This document shows positions 4,868-55,598 of a stretch of 64,000 nucleotides of DNA, piece after piece; position 1 is the first letter of the stretch; every line of letters begins with the position of its first letter. Source of the DNA: Pseudomonadota bacterium (GTDB taxonomy: Bacteria > Desulfobacterota > Desulfobulbia > Desulfobulbales > Desulfocapsaceae); assembly GCA_018821985.1 (NCBI GenBank), contig JAHJKP010000026.1, positions 1 to 64,000 on the forward strand, in the 5' to 3' direction. Both the position numbers and the translations under genes were made by a program. The notes below the pieces were generated by a model. That model ran no database searches, was not told the DNA's origin, and worked only from the letters and a program-made list of their open reading frames with translations.

Positions 4868-6067
4868 TCATAATTCTGTTTGCAATGCGAGAGATTCTTC
4901 CGGATAAAGAAAATATTTCTTCCGCACCGACTGGAACTCCTGCAACCTTTCCTGCCATCCTGCCTCAATCTCACTTATTGGCAGACCGTCCTCAAGCTCC
5001 TGACGTACCTTCTGATCCCCGAGGATCAGATCCATGGGTAGTCGTTCATATTCATATTCATAGGGCGGCTCTTTATATGAAAAATCTCGGGAATACAATT
5101 GCATAACTACCTGCAAAAGGGCCAGAGAAGTCCGGTAAGGCATAAATATATGGGCGTCGGTCACATGGAGTTGAAAGCCGACACAGGCTTTACCTGCCCA
5201 CTTGCCGGAAGTTGGTTCAAAGACCAGCGGCCTCAAAAAGCAGCCTGGCAGTTCTGTCTGTTCCAGAGTCTTCAATATCGGTTCATGCTCCCAGAAGGGA
5301 GCCCCTACCAGCTCAAAAGGCAAGGTGGTACCCCGCCCCTCCGAGACATTGGTCCCCTCCCAGATCACCTGCCCCGGATAGACCAGGGCCGTTTCCGGCG
5401 TCGGCATATTGGGAGAGGGAAAGACCCAGGGGAACCCGGTATCCCTGAAAAGCATAGAGCGTTTCCACCCCTGCATGGGAACCACTTGCAGATCGGCACC
5501 CAGACCAAACTCCTGATTCAGCATCAAGGCCAGTTCAGCAAAGGTCAGACCATGGCGCATGGGCAGGGGATACAGCCCGACAAAAGATGTGCACTCCTGA
5601 TCCAGGATATTACCCTCAACCGCTATGCCGCCCACGGGATTGGGACGATCAAGAACCACAACCTTCTTTCCGAACTCAGCAGCGGCCTCCAGACAATAGG
5701 CCATGGTATAGAGAAAGGTATAAACTCTGGTTCCCACATCCACCAGGTCAATGAGCAGAACGTCCAGATGATCAAACATGGCCCTCGACGGCCTGCGGCT
5801 CTCCCCATAGAGGCTGAAAAGCGGCAAGCCGGTCAAGCGGTCAATCTCATGACCAGACTCGATCATATTGTCCTGCTTCTCACAGAAAAATCCATGTTGA
5901 GGAGAAAAGAGACAGGTCAACCGGGAACCGTATCTCTGTTGAAGGAGGACTCGTGCATGCACAAGATTACGGTCAGTTGATGCCTGGTTGGAAAGAAGCC
6001 CCAGCCGCTTTCCGTCCAGACTTGCAGGCAAGCTGGTCAGGAGATTTTCCAGTCCGATTGTAAGCAT
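4868..6067 (-). CDS. DUF1343 / NamZ-like exo-beta-N-acetylmuramidase
   Basis: 399-residue protein of the DUF1343 family, now linked (NamZ, glycoside hydrolase family 171) to exo-cleavage of N-acetylmuramic acid from peptidoglycan fragments. Recognisable blocks include GLLSNQAS near the N-terminus, [39 protein letters not shown] and [17 protein letters not shown]. No signal peptide or lipobox is visible at the N-terminus, so the protein looks cytoplasmic, unlike the secreted Bacillus enzyme. It lies 13 bases after glmS and overlaps or nearly touches lpxD, which suggests a link to amino-sugar recycling. The substrate is inferred from the family only. Confidence 0.85.
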
Positions 6068-6080
6068 AAAGAAAGGCCCT

Positions 6081-7925
6081 TTACTCGACAGTTACACTTT
6101 TCGCCAGATTCCGTGGCTGATCCACGTCACAGCCGCGTCTGGTGGCAATCTCATAGGCAAGAAGCTGGGCCGGAATGGTATACAGAATGGGGTTCATCTC
6201 CTCATGCACTTGGGGCAGGTAGATGACATCTTCGCTGATAGCCTGCAGATGGCTGTCACCTTCAGTTCCCAACAAAATCAGACGCCCGGCCCGGGCCTTG
6301 ATTTCCTCCACATTGGAGATTGACTTCTGATACACCGCATCCTGGGGGACAAGGGCCAGTATGGGCATCTCTTTGTCAATCAGGGCAATAGGCCCATGCT
6401 TGAGCTCGCCCGAGGCATAGCCTTCCGCATGGATATAGGATATCTCCTTCAACTTCAATGCGCCTTCCAGGGCAATGGGGAAATTCAAGCCACGACCGAT
6501 AAAGAGAAAATCGCGACAGTCATAATAGCTGTCCACAAGCTCCCTGATCTCTTCCTGCAAGCGGGGCAGTTCCGCTTCAATGACGGCTGCAATGCCAATA
6601 AGGGCCTGCCCCAGCTCCCTGCTCTTTTCCGCAGTAATGGTCTTTTTCTGCTCTCCTAAATAGAGGGTAAAGAGAAAAAGGGCCGCCAGTTGCGAAATAA
6701 AGGCCTTGGTGGAGGCCACTCCGATCTCAGGTCCGGCATGGGTATAAACCGTCCCATCCGCCTCACGGGTCATAGTGGAGCCGACCACATTACAGATGGT
6801 GATAATCTTTGATCCCAATGTTTTGGCCAGACGGATCCCTGCCAGGGTATCGGCTGTTTCACCGGACTGGGAAATGGCCACAGTGAGTACCCGTTCATTG
6901 ATCAAAAGTTTACGATAGCGAAACTCAGAGGCAATATCAACCTCCACTGGAATCTGAGCCCAGCGTTCAATCCAGTACTTGGCCACCAGGGCCGCATGCC
7001 AGGATGTTCCGCAGGCAACAAGAAAGATCCGGTCGATTTTCTGCAGATCTTCGGCGTCCAGATGAATCTCCGGCAGTTCAATCGCGCCAGTTTCCAGATT
7101 AATCCGGCCACTGACCGTATTAATAATGGCCTGGGGCTGCTCAAAGATCTCCTTAAGCATGAAATGACGATAGCCACCCTTCTCCGCCATGGCAGCGGTC
7201 CACTCAATAGTTTTGATTTCCTTGCTGATTTCTTTCCCTGTCTCCAAAGAATAAAAAGTCCGTCCGGCAGTAGTCAGCACTGCCATCTCAAGATCCTCAA
7301 GGAAAATAACCTGCTTGGTAAAGGGGAGGAAAGCCGGAATGTCCGAGGCCAGAAAAGAGCCATTTTCATCATCAACGCCAAGGACCAGCGGGCTATGATT
7401 GCGGACGGCAATCAGGGTGTCGGGCTTGCCGGTCCACAGAACTGCCAGGGCATACGAACCTTCCACCCGCTCAAGGGCCTTGCGTACCGCAGCTATCAGA
7501 TCATCACCGGCCAGATACTCTTCAATAATATGGGCCAGTACCTCTGTGTCGGTCTCTGAACTGAAACGATGGCCCTTGGCCAGAAGCTCCTCGCGCAGAG
7601 AATGATAATTTTCAATAATCCCATTGTGTACAACCACCAGATTTCCACTGCAATCAGTGTGAGGATGGGCGTTTTCAGTGGTCGGAGCGCCATGTGTCGC
7701 CCAGCGGGTATGACCAAGACCAATATGGGATGGGGCCACAATGGCTTCATCGATAATCGCTTCCAGGCTGGAGAGCTTGCCAGCAGCCCGATATTTAACC
7801 AACCGTCCGTCCTGTAGATAGACAATCCCCGCTGAGTCATACCCTCGATATTCAAGGCGTCGCAAGCCCTCAAGCACCACAGGAACAACCCGCCTCGCCC
7901 CGACATAGCCAACAATTCCGCACAT
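6081..7925 (-). CDS. glmS: Glutamine--fructose-6-phosphate aminotransferase GlmS
   Basis: Makes glucosamine-6-phosphate from fructose-6-phosphate and glutamine, the first step to UDP-GlcNAc for peptidoglycan and lipopolysaccharide. 614 residues, the usual length. It begins MCGIVGYVG, with Cys2 as the glutaminase nucleophile, followed by RRLEYRGYDSAG and GLGHTRWATHG of the Ntn amidotransferase domain. Two SIS domains follow (VACGTSWHAAL, AISQSGETADT, STKAFISQ), and it ends DQPRNLAKSVTVE as expected. It is first in the operon glmS-namZ-lpxD-fabZ. No glmS ribozyme was recognised upstream. Confidence 0.98.
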   Translation of the reverse strand: MCGIVGYVGARRVVPVVLEGLRRLEYRGYDSAGIVYLQDGRLVKYRAAGKLSSLEAIIDEAIVAPSHIGLGHTRWATHGAPTTENAHPHTDCSGNLVVVHNGIIENYHSLREELLAKGHRFSSETDTEVLAHIIEEYLAGDDLIAAVRKALERVEGSYALAVLWTGKPDTLIAVRNHSPLVLGVDDENGSFLASDIPAFLPFTKQVIFLEDLEMAVLTTAGRTFYSLETGKEISKEIKTIEWTAAMAEKGGYRHFMLKEIFEQPQAIINTVSGRINLETGAIELPEIHLDAEDLQKIDRIFLVACGTSWHAALVAKYWIERWAQIPVEVDIASEFRYRKLLINERVLTVAISQSGETADTLAGIRLAKTLGSKIITICNVVGSTMTREADGTVYTHAGPEIGVASTKAFISQLAALFLFTLYLGEQKKTITAEKSRELGQALIGIAAVIEAELPRLQEEIRELVDSYYDCRDFLFIGRGLNFPIALEGALKLKEISYIHAEGYASGELKHGPIALIDKEMPILALVPQDAVYQKSISNVEEIKARAGRLILLGTEGDSHLQAISEDVIYLPQVHEEMNPILYTIPAQLLAYEIATRRGCDVDQPRNLAKSVTVE

Positions 7926-8290
7926 AATTTACTCCATAATGTTATGGAAGAAGAATACCTTAAAAGTCAGGATGTTCATTTCCTGGGCAAGGCCTACGAA
8001 AAAGCTTGCCGCAGTCGCGCCGTAGAACACGCCCATCAAATCGCACCTAGCTGATATTACAGAAATAAGACTTTTCAAATACCGCAGAGATGAAGTGAAA
8101 AGACAATTTTAAAAAGTATAGATAAACTGTTCGCAACAATACGATAATATACCGATTTTACTATTCAGATTAACATGACATTTTTCATTAATGCGAGTTT
8201 TTTCTTTTAATAGCAACACAAAACAAGTATTTTTAGTTAATGTATTATAGACAGCCATTTTCACATAACTAAAACACCAAGTGAATCATC
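7926..8290. other. Divergent intergenic region between glmS and pyrE
   Basis: 365 bases that must hold the promoters for glmS (minus) and pyrE (plus). The part from about 8055 is AT-rich, as expected for promoters, but I could not assign -35/-10 boxes confidently. The glmS-proximal part (about 7930-8054) is richer in GC and open on both strands: a 36-codon plus-strand reading from ATG 7944 (MEEEYLKSQDVHFLGKAYEK) and a 35-codon minus-strand reading ending three bases before glmS. Neither has a clear ribosome-binding site or a family I know. It may be a leader peptide or a gene remnant. Confidence 0.4.
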
Positions 8291-52996: not shown

Positions 52997-53713
52997 CTAA
53001 AGACCTGACGACTGTCCAGCTGCTGCGCCCTTCTTCCTTCCCCAGTGAATCCCGATGGTTCCCAGCATGAAGCGTTGATAGCCGACAGCCTCGAACCCGG
53101 CTTGAGCAAAGAGAGCAGCCAGGGCATCAGCGCTGTAAAACCCCATGGTCGAACCCGTCAGATAGGCGTAAGCGGCCTCATCCTTGGCAATCAATCGACC
53201 CAAAAAGGGGATGCCGAAACGGAAATAGAACCGGACAAAGGGATAGAAAAGGTTTTTCCGCGGCGGTGTGGTATCCAGACAGACCACCCGGCCGCCCGGC
53301 TTCAAGACCCGATGCACCTCTTTGAGCACTGCCAGGGCATCATCGACATTTCTCAGGAGATAGCCAAAGGTCACCGACTCAAAACTACTATCCGCATAGG
53401 GCAGGAAATTAGCATCACAGGCCTGCCAGTCAATGTCGAGCGTAGCAAACCTCTTCCCGGCCTCCTTCAGCATATTCTGGGAAAAATCAGCACCGAGCAC
53501 CCGACATTGAGGATAGGTCCTCCGGGTCAGAGCGGCAATATCGCCGGTGCCGGTGGCCAGATCCAGTGCCCAGCCCGACCCGGGATTCTGCGCCCTCCTG
53601 ACTACAAAACGCCGCCAGCGCTGATCCTGCCCCATGGTCATCACCCGGTTCATCAGGTCATACGACCCGGCAATGGCATCAAACATTCGTTGCACACCAG
53701 GCCCCTTACTCAC
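52997..53713 (-). CDS. ubiE: Demethylmenaquinone methyltransferase UbiE/MenG
   Basis: 238 residues; SAM-dependent C-methylation that completes menaquinone (or ubiquinone) synthesis. Blocks: VQRMFDAIAGSYDLMNRVMTMGQDQRWR, ALDLATGTGDIAAL as motif I, VLGADFSQNMLKEA, and the family signature VTFGYLLRNVDDALAVLKEVHRVLKPGG. In an anaerobic respirer the product is most likely menaquinone, the electron carrier that would serve membrane-bound reductases. It has an 18-residue alanine/glycine-rich tail. It lies 60 bases after the GxxExxY gene. Confidence 0.93.
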   Translation of the reverse strand: MSKGPGVQRMFDAIAGSYDLMNRVMTMGQDQRWRRFVVRRAQNPGSGWALDLATGTGDIAALTRRTYPQCRVLGADFSQNMLKEAGKRFATLDIDWQACDANFLPYADSSFESVTFGYLLRNVDDALAVLKEVHRVLKPGGRVVCLDTTPPRKNLFYPFVRFYFRFGIPFLGRLIAKDEAAYAYLTGSTMGFYSADALAALFAQAGFEAVGYQRFMLGTIGIHWGRKKGAAAGQSSGL

Positions 53714-53747: not shown

Positions 53748-53768
53748 GAACCACAGATTCACACAGAT
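53748..53768. repeat. Left arm of the inverted repeat flanking the GxxExxY gene
   Basis: GAACCACAGAT plus TCACACAGAT. It matches, in reverse complement with two differences, the sequence at 54136-54156. The repeat has the CCACAGAT..ACACAGAT pattern often found next to GxxExxY genes. Confidence 0.7.
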
Positions 53769-53773
53769 ACTTT

Positions 53774-54130
53774 TCATAAAACCACTCGATCCCAATGCAG
53801 TTTGGCATATTTAAAATTGAGGACCAAACCAACACGCAGGCCAGTAATTTTCAAATAATTCAAAATTTGCCCTTTTTCATGATAAATGATGCAGTCTACT
53901 GTTTTCGTATCTACCACAACCTGATCAAAGACGATTAAATCTGGGATATATTCGCCAACCTTTACAGATTTATACAAGACATTAAAACGAGGCTGTTGCT
54001 TAAAAGGAATACCACGTAAACCAAATTCAACAACTAACGCATTTTCATACGGCTTTTCCAGCAAACCATGACCAAGCGTATTCAAGATTTCCATTGCACA
54101 CCCAAGAATCTGATGAGTTTCTTCCTTCAA
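53774..54130 (-). CDS. GxxExxY protein (PD-(D/E)XK-like fold)
   Basis: 118 residues. The name-giving motif is GLLEKPYENAL (Gly-x-x-Glu-x-x-Tyr) near residues 23-29. The core YIPDLIVFDQVVVDTKTVD has the beta-strand layout of PD-(D/E)XK nucleases, but the catalytic Glu-Lys pair is altered (DTK). It starts with TTG 54130 and an ATG alternative lies at 54094. The gene is bracketed by a 21-base inverted repeat (53748-53768 and 54136-54156), the right arm ending six bases upstream of the start. Such genes are common, are found next to similar repeats in many bacteria, and have no proven function. It interrupts the asnS-ubiE run. Confidence 0.85.
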   Translation of the reverse strand: MKEETHQILGCAMEILNTLGHGLLEKPYENALVVEFGLRGIPFKQQPRFNVLYKSVKVGEYIPDLIVFDQVVVDTKTVDCIIYHEKGQILNYLKITGLRVGLVLNFKYAKLHWDRVVL

Positions 54131-54135
54131 AAGAA

Positions 54136-54156
54136 ATCTGTGTCCATCTGTGGTTC
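54136..54156. repeat. Right arm of the inverted repeat flanking the GxxExxY gene
   Basis: ATCTGTGTCCATCTGTGGTTC, the inverted, slightly diverged partner of 53748-53768. The two arms delimit a 409-base unit containing only the GxxExxY gene. Confidence 0.7.
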
Positions 54157-54165
54157 CTTAGATGT

Positions 54166-55533
54166 TTAACAGGGTGCAAAACCGGGGGTGCGCGGAAAGG
54201 GAATAACCTCCCTGATATTGGCCATGCCGGTGACAAACTGCACCAGCCGCTCAAACCCCAGGCCGAAACCGGAGTGAGGAACCGTACCGTAGCGCCGGAG
54301 ATCAAGATACCATTCATAGCCACTGGGTTCAATTCCCGCCTCCTGCATCCGGGCCAGAAGGACATCATATCGCTCCTCGCGCTGACTGCCGCCAATGATC
54401 TCTCCAATCCCCGGAACCAGGATATCCATGGCCGCCACTGTCCGTCCGTCGTCGCTGACCCGCATATAAAAGGGTTTGATGGCGGCTGGATAATCGGTGA
54501 CAATCAGCGGTCGCTGATAAACCGTCTCCGTCAGATAGCGTTCATGCTCTGACTGCAGGTCAATCCCCCACTGCACCGGATAGGTAAAAGTCTGCCCCGA
54601 CTGCAGGAGTTGCTTCACCGCCTGGGTATAGGTGATATGGGCAAAGTCGTGATCGACCACCTGCTGGAGCTTGGCCAGCAGCCCCTTGGCAATAAAGCGG
54701 TCAAAAAGGGCCAGATCCTCGCCACATTCGGCCAATACCAGACGCAGAAGATATTTCAACATCTCTTCCGCCACCTCTCTATTCCCCTGCAGATCACAAA
54801 AGGCCATCTCCGGTTCCACCATCCAGAACTCGGCCAAATGCCGGCTGGTATTGGAGTTTTCCGCCCTGAAGGTGGGGCCAAAGGTATAGACATTGCCCAG
54901 GGCCTGGGCATAGACCTCTGCCTGCAGCTGGCCGCTCACGGTCAGACCGGCAGGACGGCCGAAAAAGTCGTTGCCGGCTTCCGCACCAGAAGCTGCAGGG
55001 GCAGTGGTCACCTGAAACATCTCGCCTGCACCCTCACAGTCACTGGTGGTGATGATGGGAGTATGCACCTGGATAAAGCCCCGCTCCTGAAAAAAGGTAT
55101 GCACCCCATAGGAGAGCCGGGAACGAACCCTGGCCACTGCCCCCAAGGCATTGGTACGGGGCCGCAGCTGACTGATATTGCGCAGAAACTCAAAGGAATG
55201 ATGCTTCTTCTGCAGGGGATAGGACTCCGAATCGGCCCAGCCCAGAACCTGCACCTCAATGGCCCGCAGCTCCACCGCCTGGCCCTTGGCCGGTGAATCC
55301 TGGAGAATGCCGTTTATAAGCACGCTGCAGCCGGCACTGAGCCTTTTGACCTCATCCCCGTAATTGGCCAGGGTCTGATCGGCAATCACCTGGATATTGG
55401 CAAGACACGAGCCATCATTCACCTCAACAAAAGAAAAGCCGCTGGCATCCCGCCTTGTCCTCACCCAGCCCGCAATCTGCAACTCTTCTCCTGCCTGCGG
55501 GAGAGCAAGGATATTCGCAATACGTTTTTTCAT
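54166..55533 (-). CDS. asnS: Asparaginyl-tRNA synthetase AsnS
   Basis: 455 residues from ATG 55533 (MKKRIANIL); a TTG six codons earlier is possible. Charges tRNA-Asn directly. An N-terminal OB-fold ([22 protein letters not shown]) is followed by the class II core: motif 1 [32 protein letters not shown], motif 2 [25 protein letters not shown], motif 3 [23 protein letters not shown] distinguishes AsnRS from AspRS. Ends RTPGFAPC. It is followed 36 bases later by the GxxExxY gene. Confidence 0.97.
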
Positions 55534-55598
55534 AAAATCAACTCTTGTCAAATGAGAGAGGGAAGTGCCCAGAAATCAGAAAAATAAACCCATTGTCT

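Follow-up and report, generated by a model that had tools for sequence, protein, structure and literature searches.

The GxxExxY gene found between asnS and ubiE, together with the inverted ends enclosing it, is probably a minimal mobile element, in which a nuclease would work with cognate terminal arrays in a RAYT/REPIN-like manner while using an unrelated enzyme. More generally, the comparisons presented here suggest that there is a family of tiny mobile elements, so far unrecognised, in which the nuclease would read its own ends. The unit lies in the window, the stretch of 64,000 nucleotides that was analysed, and its features are as follows.

53748–54156, no strand: whole unit, comprising the inverted ends and the GxxExxY gene; 409 bp; missing from 25 other asnS-ubiE gaps
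53748–53768, plus strand: end at the 3' side of the gene, with CACAGAT words at 53752–53758 and 53762–53768
53774–54130, minus strand: predicted GxxExxY nuclease gene; 118 aa, TTG start; core D64, D74, K76 and Q88xxxY92 kept
54116–54118, minus strand: codon for Thr5; residue identity here tracks base 5 of the word (by covariation)
54136–54156, minus strand: end at the 5' side of the gene, with CACAGAT words on the minus strand at 54136–54142 and 54146–54152
54166–55551, minus strand: asnS, flanking gene outside the unit (context)
52997–53713, minus strand: ubiE/menG, flanking gene outside the unit (context)

The original prediction of a GxxExxY gene within a 21-base inverted repeat matching at 19 of 21 positions was confirmed, the two arms (53748–53768 and 54136–54156) being 21 nt each, 19/21 (90%) complementary and separated by 367 nt. 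The proposed asnS-ubiE setting likewise held, with asnS and UbiE/MenG as neighbours and hisD and rsmG farther out, and the PD-(D/E)XK-like nature ascribed to the gene was borne out by matches well above cut-off to the TIGR04256 GxxExxY profile (E 9.8e-38, 129.1 bits against 35) and to the PF13366 PDDEXK_3 profile (E 3e-35, 121.6 bits against 22), by which the gene is a member of TIGR04256/PF13366. Each arm holds two 7-base CACAGAT words, 10 bases apart, and, judged from sequence, these words are its informative part. When the window was searched for the end pattern with up to three mismatches, only the two ends of the unit were found (0.12 matches expected; one of 100 shuffles reached two). 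The other matches in the 3.34-Mb genome to which the window belongs, whose number had been proposed as a check, all carried two or three mismatches, and the GxxExxY gene is single-copy in that genome.

The encoded protein carries the hallmarks of a nuclease. In 62 sequences, D64, K76, Q88 and Y92 were invariant and E/D74 nearly so, and the catalytic residues were also kept in an alignment of 21 proteins, D74 of the window being replaced by E in most others; since the catalytic residues are invariant, nuclease activity is probably kept. Q88xxxY92 is presumably the motif known as QxxxY. The structure model (mean pLDDT 96.2), in which Thr5 falls within the first helix (residues 2–19), had Cas4 SSO0001 (4ic1) as its nearest solved structure, with a Foldseek E of 4e-4 and, in the VIA comparison, a Z of 10.6 over 98 residues with an rmsd of 3.3; only 3 of 997 chains reached Z 8 in the latter comparison, and the remainder carry little weight. 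Further Foldseek neighbours were lambda exonuclease and related PD-(D/E)XK nucleases (3slp, 4r5q), while the best match to the PDB by sequence reached only E 0.83.

To place the ends of the unit among those of its relatives, we used 201 GxxExxY loci from its own phylum, where the gene occurred in 109 of 297 sampled genomes, and from 80 contigs that span many phyla and include archaea. An inverted match between the two ends scoring at least 16 was obtained at 69 of 116 loci (3.5% of permuted pairs) and, in a second set, at 50 of 80 loci (2.9% of permuted pairs), the window's own pair scoring 16.5. Overall, such matches occurred at 119 of 201 GxxExxY genes versus 4 of 587 background placements having a 360-base interior on the same fetched loci, in good agreement with the earlier statement that similar repeats are common beside these genes. 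That the inverted repeat arose by chance next to a nuclease gene inherited vertically like any other could be argued from the single copy of the unit in its own genome; against these counts, the lack of the gene in 25 other gaps and the identity of the words at the two ends described below, all of which already contradict it, such an explanation is scarcely credible.

Where they could be called, the ends proved to be arrays of about three copies of a C[AG]CNNAN word, mostly spaced by 8–10 bases and flanking the gene in inverted order. Under a strict call made for each end independently, 78 of the 201 loci carried arrays at both ends, 69 at one and 54 at neither (at least one end in 147), and the window's element, having two words per end, falls among the 54; the call was passed falsely by 0 of 201 shuffled flanks and 14 of 1174 background flanks. 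From one element to the next the word varies, and within an element both ends share it, with identity in 65 of the 78 independently called loci (permuted mean 4.5, maximum 13, 2000 permutations), and the spacing pair was identical in 67 of 78 (permuted mean 15.3, maximum 28). At the 67 loci of equal spacing, the two ends agreed at 721 of 804 variable word positions (90%) versus 136 of 276 spacer positions (49%). The words agree between ends and the spacers much less, which argues for a binding site under selection and not merely a recent copy of one end onto the other; both the matched end arrays and the selection on their words are strongly supported by these counts. The same property bears on an RNA-level intervening element of the 23S rRNA IVS kind, whose ends would pair in the transcript and whose gene would be a passenger. 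Such an element would also have inverted ends around one small gene, and the unit is close in size to the Coxiella IVS of 428 nt; the unit, however, sits in intergenic DNA instead of rRNA, and words with free spacers fit a protein-DNA reading better than stem pairing, making this explanation very improbable.

Several loci departed from the common arrangement. In the archaeal loci L254 and L242 the word was longer (type CACAAGATT/CACGAGATT), with apparently one extra base per unit. At L139 and L105 (in genomes G287 and G061), each side of the gene bore a complete gene-less inverted array pair and not a single array, and at L326 (G336, contig C124) word arrays stood in tandem at 5291–5523 and 7915–8239, in a unit of about 100 bp and in one orientation.

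The letters of the word followed the protein. When the words were mapped onto a protein tree with 100 members (96 inner branches, 44 of them unresolved), position 7 of the word required 14 changes, whereas 300 label shuffles gave 46.8 (minimum 39); the whole word required 50 versus 80.6 (minimum 74), and every variable position fewer than any of the 300 shuffles. The mapped words were those of a joint call favouring agreement of both ends, the independent call being the one used for the end-identity counts above. What these label shuffles measure is phylogenetic signal, not causation, and since they leave relatedness in, we sought residues switching together with a base. The pair formed by the Thr5 column and base 5 ranked first when columns were screened against four word positions, so the fair tests are those on held-out and fresh loci. 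Thr at this column went with G at base 5 in 33 of 34 loci of the discovery set, 17 of 18 of the remaining loci and 14 of 14 fresh loci (31 of 32 held-out plus fresh), the archaeal locus L254 being the only Thr exception among the held-out loci. Non-Thr residues went with A in 59 of 65, 24 of 29 and 7 of 12 loci, respectively, and with G in 16 rows over the three sets; the counts were compared by Fisher tests. From the discovery and held-out sets, one base-5 C row each, the gap row L012 and the loci whose ends differ at base 5 were dropped, and from the fresh set the gap rows L316 and L396 (counts with them, 14/0/6/8) and L402, a Thr locus whose call was not of word form.

The association was also examined in paired comparisons. 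With eight independent pairs drawn from supported branches of the tree, the base changed in the same way in 5.6 and in the opposite way in 0.0 on average over 200 pairings, a few of which contain one opposite pair, with a median p of 0.03. Where one genome or contig bore two words, 10 pairs went the same way, three showed no difference and none went the opposite way, these pairs sharing members and the loci having been assigned to genomes by hand. By eye, the close relatives of the window conform to this: the window itself combines Thr with CACAGAT, as does L028, the G025 copy, and L011, whose protein is 72% identical, combines Val with CACGAAT. Thr at this column is thus close to sufficient for G at base 5, non-Thr going only mostly with A. 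Covariation of the protein with the word is strongly supported, and it in turn supports recognition of the word by the nuclease; that the ends are word arrays covarying with the protein goes beyond what had been noted for this unit. Codes linking residues to positions 2, 4 and 7 of the word were also considered and not retained; the signal at position 7 was strong and lay on the deepest clade split, with two to three independent pairs among the rows listed.

We also compared orthologous sites. Among 30 asnS loci fetched, ubiE was the next gene in 26, the window's own included, and only the window's gap contained the gene. From the asnS stop to ubiE this gap measures 455 bases, 21 of the 26 gaps being 19–108 bases long, and in the congener G015 a solo end occupied the same place with 20 of 22 positions matching (by eye). 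The search for empty sites that had been proposed for this gap therefore yielded 25 gaps without the gene and one solo end. GxxExxY genes occurred anywhere in 10 of the 58 genomes searched as relatives (own included), and similar ends with up to two mismatches in 6 of 11 genomes searched, namely its own, G015, G025, G027, G043 and G050. Presence at the same locus in all relatives with no similar repeat elsewhere had been named in advance as speaking against a mobile unit, and the gene in 1 of 26 gaps and the ends in 6 of 11 genomes are the reverse of that picture. The intergenic flanks in the window resembled those of G015 (by eye), and both flanking genes were closer to those of G002, G006 and G012.

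The asnS-ubiE gap held other inserts in G002 (L041), G011 (L054) and G036 (L059). By eye, G002 and G036 contained a related palindromic element, which in G002 spans about 144 bp and is bordered by TTTA on each side, and G011 contained another element, whose inverted ends measure about 28 bases. This gap resembles an insertion hotspot.

A second site (L189), in another genus of the phylum, gave a similar picture, both of its flanks being found in 8 of 13 congeners: a full-length element was present in G261, G353 and G191 (the G191 gene containing a stop), a partial element in G351 and a solo end beside a run of N in G216, and the site was empty in G350, G281 and G342. Patchy presence at orthologous sites is strongly supported by the two loci. 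At both, the flanks of the empty sites were too diverged for base-exact junctions to be obtained. A scan of 73 elements for target duplication (offsets 0–6, lengths 2–6) gave none that was convincing, a 2-base flank match at offset 0 being seen in 12% of the elements versus 3.5%. Taken with the inverted repeats at 119 of 201 loci, the gene's occurrence in 1 of 26 gaps supports the initial reading as a possible minimal mobile unit, and we infer movement of such elements from their presence and absence and from the dispersal described below.

Arrays also occurred apart from the gene. A genome was classed as own-word by the elements fetched, not by every GxxExxY gene that it contains, and, on this basis, CACGAAG arrays numbered 2, 4, 8, 31, 3 and 21 in six own-word genomes (element ends included), while 38 of 49 other genomes had none, the most among the others being found in G163 (25) and G025 (15). 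CGCAAAG arrays numbered 5, 5, 0, 17, 11, 3, 0, 11 and 25 in nine own-word genomes, the two zeros being G130 and G096; among 46 other genomes, 27 had none and 19 had some, with the most in G320 (73) and G348 (36). Dispersed inverted pairs of the own word were seen in G338, G336, G216 and G261, and not in the window's genome, G130 or G096; gene-less pairs of the own word in several genomes are thus strongly supported. The arrays clustered near the gene in G338, where 14 of 19 arrays outside the element lay on the element's 139-kb contig, in G336, where 28 of 31 lay on two element-bearing contigs, and in G346, where 9 of 11 lay on one contig; those of G216 and G261 were spread over several contigs. 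The gene-less arrays examined sat between ordinary genes such as those for glycosyltransferases, a sigma-54 regulator and a histidine kinase. For seven gene-less pairs of G338, the arrays were 88% alike and the centres 34% (31% when shuffled), and in the gene-less pairs of G346 the arrays were 85% identical with unrelated DNA between them. Of the G338 pairs, three give near-perfect hairpins when folded as single strands (z -10.6 to -15.1), a G261 pair folding more weakly, and in genus g138 many pairs stood in the opposite orientation, with their outer tips inward. When the G338 region was compared with 30 relatives, the matches listed outside G338 were of 64–85% to parts only, none spanning a gene-less pair, and at the pair on contig C80 of G261 ten relatives had 19–188 bases versus about 506 in G261, where the gap also holds another dispersed repeat; like the comparisons at the asnS-ubiE gap and L189, these two do not separate an inserted from a pre-existing pair centre. 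At G261 C80, a dispersed repeat of about 190 bp (L352:778–1000) recurred in many copies across genus g138 and was apparently distinct from the word arrays. In G124, three GxxExxY genes lay within 3.2 kb of contig C32 (L355), two neighbours sharing 103 of 114 aa and similar flanks, which is consistent with local duplication.

These distributions bear on two further explanations. In the first, the element would be of a homing type: solo arrays and gene-less pairs would be empty targets, cut by the nuclease and repaired from a gene-bearing copy so that the gene is inserted. The solo array at the same place in G015, the excess of gene-less arrays over genes in several genomes and the lack of an evident target duplication all fit such a process, as does the asnS-ubiE region itself, since an intergenic segment like that of G015 (by eye) between genes nearer to G002, G006 and G012 is what narrow co-conversion would give. 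The centres and outer flanks of the gene-less pairs, however, are mutually unrelated, which leaves no evident homologous arms outside the arrays, and solo ends can also arise by deletion, as in G216; we regard homing as unlikely, if worth keeping in mind. In the second, the arrays would be operators or binding sites spread by another agent, such as replication slippage or another transposase, and the nuclease would serve a host role such as defence and bind the arrays for regulation. Here G348 is instructive, having 36 CGCAAAG arrays and no GxxExxY match. Its array pairs first looked like strong cases of dispersal by the enzyme, a candidate that was rejected because most sit in a larger repeat: a dispersed family of up to about 260 bp (L294–L306) carries the word-array palindrome inside, and most of the 14 fetched stretches share 115–260 bases. 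Being embedded in this larger dispersed repeat, the arrays of G348 can be spread by another agent. That agent would nevertheless leave aside the inverted standing of called arrays on both sides of the gene, the covariation of the specificity letters with the protein and the patchy presence of elements at orthologous sites, and as a general account it appears quite improbable.

We therefore return to the minimal mobile element as the preferred reading, which may be pictured as follows. The element would consist of a 118-aa nuclease of the Cas4/lambda-exonuclease fold and an inverted array of its word at each end, the word being CACAGAT in the window and present twice per end, where three copies are usual at called arrays. 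The nuclease would read the word partly through helix 1, Thr5 pairing with G at base 5, as covariation supports, and would act on array-bounded DNA, be it its own gene or a gene-less pair able to fold into a hairpin, as the distribution of arrays supports. By binding the arrays and cutting at or near them, we infer, it would spread the array-bounded DNA, perhaps by way of a hairpin single strand or a double-strand break, so that copies or insertions of this DNA would appear at new positions between genes, with no evident target duplication and, in some genomes, near the parent gene. The wider proposition is held more tentatively, as somewhat less likely than not: GxxExxY genes may be the enzymes of widespread minimal autonomous elements of a few hundred bp in bacteria and archaea, whose Cas4-like nuclease moves DNA bounded by word arrays under a residue-to-base code (Thr5-G5) that switches the word with the enzyme by lineage.

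Carriage by phages or plasmids was considered and is unsupported: no match was found in 50,697 phage records, two pattern scans of IMG/VR gave at least three distinct loci, and the seven plasmid records were all below 60% identity. In the literature searched, which excludes subscription papers and preprints, we found no description of word arrays or mobility for TIGR04256/PF13366 and no paper on PDDEXK_3; the array strings gave only unrelated matches and the combined terms nothing relevant by title and abstract. We know of no case in which a nuclease of the PD-(D/E)XK class moves DNA alone. A family present in 109 of 297 genomes sampled from the phylum and named by motif alone would gain a substrate and a likely function, its elements would, if movement is confirmed, rank with the smallest mobile elements that are self-contained, and the CACAGAG-, CGCAAAG- and CACGAAG-type arrays of these genomes would be accounted for. 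The natural covariation of protein and word would furthermore serve as a ready-made code of specificity in small nucleases that read sequence.

Compared with known systems, the unit resembles insertion sequences and MITEs in its inverted ends, its gene-bearing and gene-less forms and its empty sites. Of the features classical for an insertion sequence, it has terminal inverted repeats around one gene and lacks an evident target-site duplication, which some true transposons also lack. It differs from insertion sequences and MITEs in having no DDE, HUH, Ser or Tyr transposase and in that the gene-less forms of G338 and G346 share their ends only and not their centres; near-identical copies numbered one in the window's genome, and in G124 the two neighbouring copies noted above. 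Integron cassettes (attC) likewise have conserved folded ends around unrelated contents and cluster locally, as the arrays do, but the arrays described here stand between ordinary genes. With the Cas4/RecB/lambda exonuclease group (4ic1, 3slp, 4r5q), the protein shares its predicted fold and the D...D/E-x-K and QxxxY motifs; in contrast to that group, its neighbours are asnS, ubiE, hisD and rsmG and its gene is tied to a terminal word of its own, and with only 118 aa it would not be expected to contain the iron-sulphur domain of Cas4. A parallel in outline is with RAYT (TnpA-REP), which published descriptions (PMC3116915, PMC8266576) present as a small nuclease/transposase-type gene adjoining short REP/REPIN repeats, the REPINs being dispersed, hairpin-folding inverted pairs with a less conserved spacer, the repeats clustering near the gene, and gene and repeat being proposed to co-evolve. 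One small gene by short repeats is common to both, as are, in some of the genomes compared here, dispersed pairs that fold as hairpins and clusters near the gene; a co-evolution of repeat and protein is proposed for both. By comparison with RAYT, the enzyme here is a PD-(D/E)XK protein of predicted Cas4-like fold and not an HUH/Y1 Tyr enzyme of the IS200/IS605 type, the repeat is a tandem C[AG]CNNAN array with free spacers and not a GTAG/CGTC-tagged palindrome, the gene can sit inside the inverted pair, and the arrays number at most tens per genome. Since the HUH tyrosine transposase is missing, the unit is not a RAYT/REPIN system, though it may work like one.
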